64,000 bases of DNA from Pseudomonadota bacterium. Lineage in GTDB: Bacteria > Pseudomonadota > Gammaproteobacteria > Xanthomonadales > Xanthomonadaceae. The stretch covers positions 50,443 to 114,442 of the forward strand of contig JAFEEL010000052.1 in NCBI GenBank assembly GCA_018241125.1, in the 5' to 3' direction. Every line of letters starts with the position of its first letter. Positions within the stretch are counted from its first letter, which is position 1. Made by a program: the position numbers and the translations under genes. Below, in pieces: positions 11,899 through 54,750 of the stretch. Under the pieces are notes generated by a model. That model was not told the origin of the DNA and ran no database searches. It saw only the letters and a list, made by a program, of their open reading frames with translations.

Positions 11899-12012
11899 GC
11901 AAATGATTGGACATCCTGTCCAACATTTGCTCGCCGAGCCCGGTACGTGCCCGTACTCGGCTCCGTCGCAACGGCATTGCTGCCGTTGCGACGCGTGGCC
12001 CGTCCCTGGGCC
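11899..12012 (-). other. Four-hairpin structured element, copy A
   Basis: Read on the minus strand, four hairpins follow each other. H1 is 12012-11997 (GGCCC-AGGGAC-GGGCC). H2 is 11992-11965, with 12-bp perfect arms and a GCAA tetraloop. H3 is 11961-11933, containing GTACGGGCACGTACCGGG. H4 is 11930-11899, a 14-bp stem with one bulge and an AGGA loop in GGACAGGATGTCC. It fills most of the gap between yceI and the pirin gene. The same four-part layout recurs at 52623-52736. No U-tract follows any hairpin on either strand, so a simple terminator is unlikely. The family could not be named. Confidence 0.7.
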
Positions 12013-12063
12013 GCGATCCGGGCATCGTCAGGCACGTTCTTCCAGCATCCGGCCCGATAACCC

Positions 12064-36139: not shown

Positions 36140-36215
36140 GGGACTGCGGCGATGAATAGCAGATCCATCACGTTGCTCTGGATGACAGGGCTTCGGAAGC
36201 CGGTACCGTGTTCCC

Positions 36216-36430
36216 GGCTCACGGCTATCGGCTCACCGCTCACGGCTCACGACTCACCGCTCACGGCTCACGGCTCACGGCTCACGGCTATCGGCTCACC
36301 CCTCACGGCTCACGGCTCACGCCTCACGGCTCACGGCTATCGGCTCACGGCTCACGGCTCACCGCTCACGGCTCACGGCTCACCGCTCACCGCTCACATC
36401 TATCGGCTCCCGTCTATCGGCTCCCGTCTG
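36216..36430. repeat. Degenerate heptamer array of GGCTCAC units (~30 copies)
   Basis: About thirty 7-bp units with consensus GGCTCAC and variants GGCTATC, CGCTCAC and CCCTCAC keep register for roughly 215 bp. The array ends about 30 bp before the ATG of a TetR gene, just upstream of a TACACT -10-like box. It is not CRISPR: there are no spacers. Confidence 0.85.
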
Positions 36431-36461
36431 GGCATGGCAGCCCGTCGGCTACACTGCGCCG

Positions 36462-38958: not shown

Positions 38959-39034
38959 GCGCAGAATCGTCGCGCGCCCGGAGCGCATCCGGGCGCGGGA
39001 TGGGAGTCAGACGCGCAAATCCGGCGAGCGAAGC

Positions 39035-39126
39035 AAAGGCGCAAATCAAAAGGCGCAAATCAAAGGCGCAAGTCAAAGGCGCAAGTCAAAGGCGCAAGTC
39101 AAAGGCGCAAGTCAAAGGCGCAAGTC
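39035..39126. repeat. 13-bp tandem array (AAAGGCGCAA[A/G]TC, seven units) running into a gene end
   Basis: Units: AAAGGCGCAAATC once, a 14-bp variant once, then five exact AAAGGCGCAAGTC. The array starts in the pckG-sulfotransferase gap and covers the stop codon (39112-39114) and last codons of the minus-strand sulfotransferase gene. Confidence 0.92.
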
Positions 39127-40818
39127 GGCCGTCGCCTCGCGCGCGTCGTGTGCGACGATGGCCTCCAGACGCGGCAGGATGGGCGCAAGCGCGAACTCGT
39201 AGTTGCGCCAATGCCCGATGCCTCTAGAGTTCAGCGGGGCTTCGACTTGGTACTGGCTGGCCGTGCGGATATGGCCCTTGCGTCCAGTGTGCTCAAGCAC
39301 CCCCGCATCCCACTCCAGCCCGATGGCTTGCACCAGCCGACGCAGTACCGGCTCGGGATCGGCGATCAGGTTTTCATACCTCAACTCAGTCAGTCGCTCG
39401 CCGATCGTGGCGCGCCAGTGTCGCATCATCCGTCGGTGCTGTTCGATGCGGTGCGCGATGTGTTCCAGTTCGCGGGTCCAGTTGATCCGCGAAAAATTGG
39501 TGCGCCAACACGAGATCGCCACGTCGCGTGGATCGCGCAGGCAATGAATGATCGTCGCGTTCGGGAAAGCTGCGCTCAACCAGCCGGCGAACACGAAGTT
39601 GTCAGGCAGTTTGTCGATGATGCGTTCGGCATCGGTGCGCAAGGACAGGCGAACCAGACGGTCTTCCATCTGACCGACGTGCCAGTCGGCAGCTTCGCGC
39701 ACGACCGAGTGCGGCATCCGCGCCATCGGCAAGTCGCCGGCGGCCATCATCGCGCGCCGGAAGCTGGCGTCTGCGAACGTTTGCTCGCCGACGCTGGTGA
39801 TCCCGGGGTGTCCGCACAGCATCTGTTGCAGCAGGGTAGTCCCCGAGCGCGGCATGCCGACGATGAAAACGGGTCGGGAATCCGAACTGCCGGCATCACG
39901 CATGCGTTCGAACCAGGCCGGCCGGAACATCTCGATGGTCACGTCGGCTTCGCGCTCGCGCAGGCGCGGGTCGTAATGATCCTGCGGCAGGGCCAGTTCG
40001 CGCTGGATGGCCTTGACGGGTTCGAGGTGCGCGATGGCCCTCGCGAAGTCGCCCGCGCGATCGAAATGGCGAGACAGCACATCGTGCAGGGGTGCCAAGC
40101 GCCGTGGGTCGGTCGTGTGGCGGGTCATTCCTTCAACGTGGGCGAAGGTGTCACCGTCGAGCAGGCCGCCTTCGATCTGCGCTTGTTCCCACAGGGCGGC
40201 GCCATTGTCGGGGTCGAGCACCAAGGCGGTGCGCAAGTGATCAAGCGCGGCATCCCGGTCGCCCCGGTTGGTGGCAAGGCGCGACAATTCGACGTGGGGC
40301 GTAGCGTCATCGGCACGCAGCGCGGCGTAGCAGGTGAAGGCGCCACATGCATCCGCGAGGCGTTCGGCGTTGGTCATGAGGTAGGCGAAGTGCAAGACGA
40401 GATTCGCACACTTGGGGTGCCGTTCGACCAACGGCCGCAGCAGTTCGCCGGCTTTGTCGGGATCGTTTATTCCGGTGACGATCATGTCGAGCATGCCGCC
40501 GGGGTCTGCGAATGCGGAATCCAGCGCGAGGGCGCGATCGAGCAACTCGATGGCTTGCGGCTTGTTGCCCGCAAGCCAAGCAGCGCGCGCCCAGCCCGCA
40601 AGGATCTCGGGATGATCCGGAAGCGCGGTTGCCGCGTCACGGTACCGGATCACCGCCGCGTTGCGTCGCCCCGTCGCCTGCAGGGCGCTGGCGAGGGCGT
40701 GCAGCAGCGCCAGATTCGCCGGTTCGCGTCGATGGGCACGATCCAGATGGGGTAGTGCCTCCTCGAACCGCCCTTGATGGGCGAGGCGCATGCCGGTCGA
40801 GGCGTCTTGTGATGTCAT
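39112..40818 (-). CDS. TPR-sulfotransferase (Sulfotransfer_3 / tyrosylprotein-sulfotransferase-like), copy 1
   Basis: The 568-residue protein has TPR repeats in the first ~220 residues (GMRLAHQGRFEEALPHLDRA; ATGRRNAAVIRYRDAATALP). A PAPS-dependent sulfotransferase domain follows, with the 5'-phosphosulfate loop VFIVGMPRSGTTLLQQML (~315-330) and the 3'-phosphate block IIHCLRDPRDVAISCW. A conserved LTELRYENLIADPEPVLRRL end is present. It should move sulfate from PAPS to a protein or glycan. It lies in tandem with copy 2 and near the TonB-dependent receptor. Its stop codon and last three codons come from the 13-bp array. Start at MTSQDAST; the frame continues upstream without support. Confidence 0.88.
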   Translation of the reverse strand: MTSQDASTGMRLAHQGRFEEALPHLDRAHRREPANLALLHALASALQATGRRNAAVIRYRDAATALPDHPEILAGWARAAWLAGNKPQAIELLDRALALDSAFADPGGMLDMIVTGINDPDKAGELLRPLVERHPKCANLVLHFAYLMTNAERLADACGAFTCYAALRADDATPHVELSRLATNRGDRDAALDHLRTALVLDPDNGAALWEQAQIEGGLLDGDTFAHVEGMTRHTTDPRRLAPLHDVLSRHFDRAGDFARAIAHLEPVKAIQRELALPQDHYDPRLREREADVTIEMFRPAWFERMRDAGSSDSRPVFIVGMPRSGTTLLQQMLCGHPGITSVGEQTFADASFRRAMMAAGDLPMARMPHSVVREAADWHVGQMEDRLVRLSLRTDAERIIDKLPDNFVFAGWLSAAFPNATIIHCLRDPRDVAISCWRTNFSRINWTRELEHIAHRIEQHRRMMRHWRATIGERLTELRYENLIADPEPVLRRLVQAIGLEWDAGVLEHTGRKGHIRTASQYQVEAPLNSRGIGHWRNYEFALAPILPRLEAIVAHDAREATADLRL

Positions 40819-52590: not shown

Positions 52591-52736
52591 CCCGCAGGCT
52601 GGTGAACACAGCCTGCGGGAGAGATCCGGGGATGGATCGCACGCCAAGCAAACGCGCAAGTGTTTGATTGGGCGCAGCCCAGTACGGGCATGTACCGGAC
52701 TGGGTGACTTGAAAATGGGCAGGAACGCCCATTTTC
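52591..52736 (+). other. Multi-hairpin leader before yheS, including four-hairpin element copy B
   Basis: First comes a hairpin at 52591-52619 (10-bp perfect arms, CCCGCAGGCT). Then the element: H1 52623-52638 (GATCC-GGGGAT-GGATC), H2 52644-52671 (12-nt arms with one mismatch, GCAA loop), H3 52678-52704 (contains GTACGGGCATGTACCGGA), H4 52711-52736 (GAAAATGGGC arms, AGGA-type loop). H4 ends 25 bp before the yheS ATG. Order, sizes and loops match copy A at 11899-12012, with changed but still paired stems. Confidence 0.75.
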
Positions 52737-52761
52737 AACAACCTGATAATATCCGCGCCCC

Positions 52762-54750
<1,989 letters not shown>

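Follow-up and report, generated by a model that had tools for sequence, protein, structure and literature searches.

The question raised by this locus is what kind of element forms two hairpin-rich sites in the window (the whole stretch of DNA analysed, 64,000 nucleotides), and whether it acts as DNA, as RNA or as a leader of the yheS-like gene beside one of them. The original prediction described two copies of a four-hairpin element with fixed loops and covarying stems. Copy A lies on the minus strand, flanked by genes for YceI (PF04264) and pirin (PF02678), and copy B lies on the plus strand with its 3′ end 16 bp ahead of the yheS-like start codon (Table 1).

Structure of the two copies in the window

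Refolding of A and B bore out two sites with four hairpins each in identical order. H2, which had been given as 28 nt in both copies, is actually 30 nt long in A and 33 nt long in B; the constancy of H3 was upheld, with GTACGGGCA[C/T]GTACCGG kept exactly in both. Copies A and B are therefore real as described, but the two-copy picture gave way to a family of dozens of copies in which B is a five-hairpin member with terminal repeats. Compared with dinucleotide shuffles, folding was strong for A (z −7.9) and B (z −4.9), with 0 of 200 shuffles as good. The complements folded equally well against shuffles (z −7.5 for A and −5.6 for B), so the strand is not told by folding alone. A covariance model built from seven copies (R1) had strong matches in the window at A (79 bits) and B (120 bits) only, and opposite-strand matches reached at most 22.6 bits. 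Simple patterns for a sigma-70-like promoter or a terminator detected neither around these two copies.

Table 1. Positions of element parts, the gene beside copy B and the helper-candidate repeat (window coordinates unless a contig is named)
Feature	Position	Strand	Remark or basis
Copy B, whole element	52591..52745	+	diverged main-subfamily member; five hairpins, eroded inverted repeats
B H0, left terminal hairpin holding left inverted repeat (CAGGCTG...)	52591..52619	+	by eye, aligned copies
B H1, GATCC-GGGGAU-GGATC, GGA loop	52623..52638	+	folding, model R1
B H2, GCAA loop	52642..52674	+	folding
B H3, GTACGGGCATGTACCGG core	52677..52705	+	core pattern
B H4, loop AGGAAC, stem overlapping right inverted repeat	52709..52738	+	folding, aligned copies
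B right inverted repeat, outer part (TCAACAACCTG)	52735..52745	+	by eye
yheS-like gene, two-domain ABC ATPase	52762..54750	+	neighbouring gene, outside element
Copy A, second subfamily	11899..12014	-	inverted repeats not recognised
A H1, GGCCC-AGGGAC-GGGCC, CsrA-type hexaloop	11997..12012	-	folding
A H2, GCAA loop	11964..11993	-	folding
A H3, GTACGGGCACGTACCGG core	11933..11961	-	core pattern
A H4, tip GGAC-AGGAU-GUCC, alike in fellow subfamily copies	11899..11930	-	by eye
Helper-candidate repeat	G000:C47:1-123 and ends of C22, C17, C14		multi-copy, CAGGCTGTTGAAAAAC with YTAR flanks

The window also holds repeats of other kinds. Tandem arrays occupy 36170-36457 and 39009-39139 (periods 14/21 bp and 13 bp), and within the yheS-like gene a palindromic GC-rich repeat of the CCCCCGC..GCGGGGG type takes up about 34 codons in frame (53737-53838). 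A repeat resembling the latter, CCTGCCCCCGCGCAGGCGGGGG, occupies the H4 loop of 14 of 42 element copies in the genome that contains the window (the own genome).

Dispersal and transposon features of the family

Covariance-model searches recovered many further copies, and the family is dispersed well past A and B. With up to two mismatches allowed, the own genome has 46 places that match the 17-base H3 core, against 3 for a reversed-pattern control. A second covariance model (R2, built from 61 matches) scored 53 times in this genome of 3.07 Mb, with one match lying on the reverse strand of another. R2 matched 16 of 40 genomes comprising the own genome and its relatives, very unevenly (1 to at least 91 matches each). 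In a sample of the class 33 of 274 genomes had R2 matches, and in one of the phylum 40 of 299 had them, the own genome being counted in both samples and the filters there being stricter, with loss of weak matches. Outside the class, 37 element-bearing genomes of the phylum sample were found, 30 of them from one family. One model search was given 72 of 152 sources, and others were given 55 (toward R2), 94 and 32. When species genomes were scanned for just the core, at least 107 stretches matched; among the matches listed, true copies came from Lysobacterales, Rhodanobacter, Immundisolibacter, Chromatiales, Halothiobacillus and others, those in Streptomyces and other actinomycetes were judged by eye to be chance from their context, and the sole match in Bryobacteraceae (L124) may be contamination. 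The GC content of the elements ranges from 39 to 79 %. By eye, the copies in the own genome consist of one near-identical subfamily and others with widely differing stems, and these divergent copies (L031, L037, L039, L043; L030; L038) keep the order, the spacing and most of the loops.

Some copies stand in tandem. One locus contains five head-to-tail cores with an exact 130-bp period (L209, G025:C1:3396600-3399300), and the Immundisolibacter MAG STE_186 carries element pairs spaced 153 and 155 bp (L108, L089) with an inverted repeat of another type (CTCAGAGYTTGTGAA). Virus-borne spread was considered and rejected, the single exact match in viral contigs being without the surrounding hairpins (by eye), and blastn found no B-like copies in plasmids or phages.

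Overlooked in the original prediction was the nature of the main-subfamily copies, which are miniature transposons of about 155 bp with inverted repeats and a 4-bp target duplication. They start at CAGGCTGTTGAAAAAC and finish with its near-inverse, and their flanks are mostly YTAR; the terminal inverted repeats read CAGGCTGTTGAAAAA and CAGGTTGTTGAAAAA at either end. None was recognised by eye in the subfamily of copy A. When up to two mismatches were allowed, the inverted repeat was found at 58 places in the own genome (0 for the control), most of them paired around elements. The target duplication, also mostly YTAR, was counted in copies with both ends at no more than three substitutions (17, 1, 17, 1 and 15). 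In the own genome its first base agrees in 17 of 17 copies, as does its last, and whole 4-mers are identical in 7 of 17, which 145 of 2000 permutations equalled; identical 4-mers number 10 of 17 in G033 and 6 of 15 in the MAG Ru_enrich_XN, with 0 of 2000 permutations as good. The central TA is unlike between the two sides in the other 10 of 17 own copies (within loci L006-L044), one side having TA and the other always CA or TG, and the outer bases always agree.

At the intergenic places of A and B, four sister genomes (G001-G004) have spacers of 4-93 bp, which are too short for the element, so that it is absent from all four; their flanks are too diverged for a clean empty target to be read. 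A 4-bp target duplication next to inverted repeats is characteristic of double-strand (DDE) transposition. That the four-hairpin element is mobile DNA is well supported.

The same inverted repeat occurs on another sequence at four contig ends, and the window's own contig begins with one of these. This sequence is identical over 122-123 bp, is flanked by TTAA, TTAG, CTAG or CTAA, and its interior is absent from the assembly. The longer repeat at these contig ends is probably a helper insertion sequence; a search for its end in plasmids found none. Members of the IS5 group have an IS5-type transposase and a YTAR duplication, and of these two traits the duplication was observed here.

Covarying stems and GGA loops

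Paired changes beneath fixed loops had been taken to indicate selection on structure, probably of RNA, and the larger set of copies agrees with this, since stems covary across copies and G-U exceeds A-C. In a MAFFT alignment that was not fitted to a structure (A2, 31 of the 34 reference copies, omitting L044, L021 and the minus-strand copy of L018), 31 pairs of H1-H3 were scored on a structure that RNAalifold itself derived from the same alignment. Of their cells 90.6 % were paired, two-sided changes occurred in 18 of the 31 pairs, and the covariation score was 0.335 compared with 0.143 for shuffled alignments and at most 0.077 for slid structures; H4 was left out because it is misaligned there. 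A set of distant copies (36 rows including one antisense echo), whose model-fitted alignment leans toward the model, had 96.8 % of cells paired, two-sided changes in 42 of 45 pairs and a score of 0.847; its shuffled alignments scored 0.218 and its slid structures no more than 0.156. Relatedness among copies is controlled by the slid structures and not by the shuffles.

The two strands differ in the mismatches that they tolerate. On the strand with GGA loops, G-U pairs outnumber A-C pairs by 41 to 13 in A2 with near-duplicates removed, and by 88 to 44 and 39 to 7 in two model-fitted sets. Tolerance of G-U points to RNA of the GGA strand, although the excess may reflect strand-biased mutation or the preference of the folding program for G-U. 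Taken from these alignments, selection on structure, most likely on RNA of the GGA strand, is very likely.

The likeness of the H1 and H4 loops to CsrA/RsmA targets became stronger with more copies. GGA is found at both tips in 72 of 88 non-redundant copies, with one or both tips lacking it in 16; H1 has the form C-ANGGAN-G in 69 and H4 the form CAGGA(U/A/C)G or C-ANGGAN-G in 55. The median distance between the two GGA motifs is 92 nt, with two hairpins between them. These 88 copies join a set of 55 (114 matches, 105 without antisense echoes, the best 97 of these, and 55 at no more than 85 % alike) to 33 distant copies (36 rows, 35 with one antisense echo out, then 33), redundancy having been removed within each set. 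Counted in the loop and closing pair, one base fewer on each side than for the 88, GGA tips in the 55 copies number 47 at H1, 48 at H4, 1 at H2 and 0 at H3, and in the 33 distant copies 30, 30, 2 and 0. Sets drawn with the model favour GGA because it is part of the model. Of the copies found through the H3 core alone and possessing an extended stem (n=41, including duplicates, many from two genomes), 30 had a GGA hairpin toward H1, 34 had one toward H4 and 28 had both, compared with 4 % and 7 % for shuffled flanks on the H1 and H4 sides; no other loop triplet was as common on either side. Core matches lacking an extended stem (n=63), which are a mix of real short-stemmed copies and chance matches, had 12 and 13 GGA hairpins. 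Among the 42 distinct copies of the own genome, H4 has NGGA in 20, another repeat replaces AGGA in 14 and 4 are cut by a contig end; the loss of AGGA in 14 indicates that copies are not all kept intact.

The commonest loops are close to published CsrA targets. H1 is AUGGAU in 19 of the 55 copies and 6 of the 33, with AGGGAU also common, and H4 is mostly AGGAN. In the passages that bear on it, PMC7652899 gives a SELEX consensus of RUACARGGAUGU for CsrA, an ANGGAN hexaloop bound by RsmE and CAGGA(U/A/C)G as the CsrB repeat; H1 and H4 fit this hexaloop and this repeat. The same source notes that very stable stems may disfavour CsrA and that bridging in E. coli covers 10-63 nt. The stems of the element are long and the median GGA-GGA distance exceeds this range. 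Judged from loop sequence, CsrA binding by H1 and H4 appears somewhat more probable than its absence. The H3 loop, which is GCAUGUA or ACAUGUG in 29 of the 55 copies, changes in distant copies, where GGA stays. Often it can be written as G-CAUGU-A or A-CAUGU-G, with a possible G.A or A.G pair closing a palindromic CAUG, which could permit kissing of two RNAs.

Genomes that carry the element mostly carry csrA. In the phylum sample csrA was detected in 38 of 40 element-bearing genomes compared with 180 of 299 overall, the two exceptions being 74 % and 69 % complete, and when the count was restricted to completeness of 90 % or more and contamination of 5 % or less, it was detected in 23 of 23 compared with 131 of 239. 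The corresponding proportions were 32 of 33 and 235 of 274 in the class sample, where the exception (G131, 90 % complete) has one weak csrA match, and 15 of 16 and 37 of 40 among the own genome and its relatives, where the exception is 72 % complete. Three element-bearing genomes without detected csrA (G011, G524 and G575) are 69-74 % complete. This co-occurrence is compatible with a need for CsrA, yet it is confounded by phylogeny, as 30 of the 37 bearers outside the class belong to one family.

Proposed mechanism, alternatives and related families

The reading that we favour, at a probability of roughly 0.6, is that of a mobile cassette whose RNA, transcribed together with neighbouring genes, binds CsrA dimers. 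Its DNA form would move by the terminal inverted repeats, with help in trans from an insertion sequence that shares these repeats and the YTAR target, and each copy would be transcribed with the adjoining gene. The RNA would fold into four hairpins of which H1 and H4 offer GGA loops of the CsrA/RsmA type, and H2 and H3 would bring these two together so that a CsrA dimer clamps both. Tens of copies per genome could then titrate CsrA, or place it on many mRNA ends. In effect the element may titrate CsrA, mark host transcripts or control its helper, and the insertions may also be neutral.

The genomic context bears on the suggestion that the element serves yheS or other downstream genes as a cis-regulatory leader. 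In six genomes or groups, with a home-made gene finder, 1 of 108 copies lay inside a predicted gene. For this set the upstream gene was in the sense of the element in 58 cases against 34 (P=0.016) and the downstream gene was convergent in 52 against 36 (P=0.11); where both neighbours ran in the same direction, the element was sense in 23 and antisense in 16 (P=0.34). Neighbouring gene ends outnumbered gene starts by 110 to 70. These counts indicate that copies are intergenic, near gene ends and weakly biased to the sense direction. In 9 of 34 own-genome copies the target duplication is a neighbouring gene's stop codon, and insertion into stop codons was rejected as a rule, the corresponding counts elsewhere being 0 of 16 and 3 of 15. 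A fixed partner gene was likewise rejected: within 400 bp of 284 positions, 3 of 242 ORF families occurred at three places, a count made after removal of ORFs overlapping the element and with two of the three families inflated by a doubly identified place (before that removal, the 25 clusters listed of 350 were mostly read-through of the element). Copy B does end just ahead of the yheS-like start, and two further copies (L038, L262) directly precede an apparent start codon by eye. The leader role considered possible for B is not supported as a reason for the element, however, because the element is missing ahead of yheS in G001-G004 and neighbouring ORF families hardly recur; B is not a conserved yheS leader, and the closeness to gene ends rather than starts speaks against leaders elsewhere. 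A leader is thus highly improbable as the general role, and domestication of single copies is possible.

The remaining alternatives concern the origin and the partner of the hairpins. Transposases that act on single strands read hairpins with fixed loops and free stems, and the hairpins of the element have just these properties, its terminal repeats lie inside H0 and H4 (by eye), and the five cores of period 130 in G025 are arrayed as in REP clusters. The hairpins might accordingly work as single-stranded DNA read by a transposase during replication, in the manner of IS200/IS605 or REP-like systems, with no role as RNA; this is quite unlikely given the DDE signature, the excess of G-U over A-C and, by eye, an order and spacing of H1-H4 that is kept where terminal repeats differ between subfamilies and genomes. 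Mutation alone could also keep stems perfect, as correction of quasi-palindromes by template switching between imperfect arms is known and would give covariation without function. Many stems are indeed near-perfect inverted repeats, but such a process leaves unexplained why GGA is found at the tips of H1 and H4 and not of H2 and H3, why G-U exceeds A-C and why order and spacing are common to elements across the whole GC range, and we regard it as very unlikely. Unlikely, though less so, is a selected RNA with a partner other than CsrA, whether another protein, an anti-Shine-Dalgarno interaction or loop-loop dimerisation through the CAUG of H3. The frequent H3 loop sequence is not required by CsrA, and CsrA is so common (32 of 33 compared with 235 of 274) that co-occurrence says little within the class; against this, the same ANGGAN/AGGA motif in two loops fits a homodimer, and the H3 loop varies in distant copies while GGA persists.

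Comparison with Rfam families gave no name for the element, in line with the original prediction, which had named no known family. Rfam 15 had no family at gathering in the window, and relaxed thresholds on the scanned copies gave only sub-threshold matches. The complement of copy B (window 52650-52760, minus strand) matched AS-pc02 at 14.5 bits (gathering 40, E 0.23), and L279 (1505-1594, minus strand) matched AS-pc01 at 28.8 bits (gathering 79, E 0.22); these overlaps are probably chance, though the two names are related. With many copies, covarying stems and no Rfam match, nothing was found that contradicts the original description of a structured family. No title among the open-licence papers listed describes the family, which is weak evidence that it is absent from print.

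CsrB/CsrC and RsmX/RsmY/RsmZ are fixed sRNA genes with their own promoter and terminator, a typical MITE derives from a single insertion sequence by internal deletion, and REP elements have a fixed GTAG-type foot. The element resembles the CsrB/Rsm RNAs in having several GGA motifs in hairpin loops, which in those RNAs are paired for a CsrA dimer according to parts of PMC4333381 and PMC7652899. In contrast to them it is mobile and multi-copy, has two GGA loops and shows no promoter or terminator pattern at A and B; the CsrB/Rsm clan models gave only RsmW around the window copies (13.2 bits, gathering 52, E 5.2). It is also like TwoAYGGAY (RF01731), an RNA with two GGA-loop hairpins that has been proposed to bind CsrA, as has Bacillaceae-1, another Rfam family with paired CsrA-type loops (both in a passage of PMC4333381); TwoAYGGAY is reported from the human gut, gamma-Proteobacteria and Clostridiales (PMC2864571, in part). 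The element differs from TwoAYGGAY in having four consecutive hairpins and terminal inverted repeats and in being present tens of times per genome, and that model had no gathering match in the window, none at E≤1 in 5 + 8 further loci and none at E≤10 around A and B. Like bacterial MITEs it is short, with inverted repeats, target duplication, many copies and a probable helper in the same genome, but its interior is a covarying RNA common to genomes in which the inverted repeats vary. REP, BIME and REPIN sequences are intergenic, hairpin-forming, miniature mobile DNA (PMC3116915, in part), as is the element, which is set apart by its four hairpins, inverted repeats and duplicated target and in which a GTAG-type foot was not noticed by eye.

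Returning to the CsrA-binding mobile cassette, a wider form of this reading is offered tentatively, as a possibility suggested by sequence comparison: a self-spreading cassette that has been fitted with different insertion-sequence ends in different lineages of Pseudomonadota might titrate CsrA by its copy number, or its transposon might use CsrA for control of the helper or for stabilising host transcripts. Bacterial miniature transposons are usually viewed as inert debris with inverted repeats, and here the part that is kept is the interior, as RNA, across bacterial classes and differing transposon ends. For annotators, the covariance model covers a common family that Rfam 15 missed. If the loops bind CsrA, this would be a selfish element with a handle on a main global regulator, and copy number would turn into a regulatory variable.
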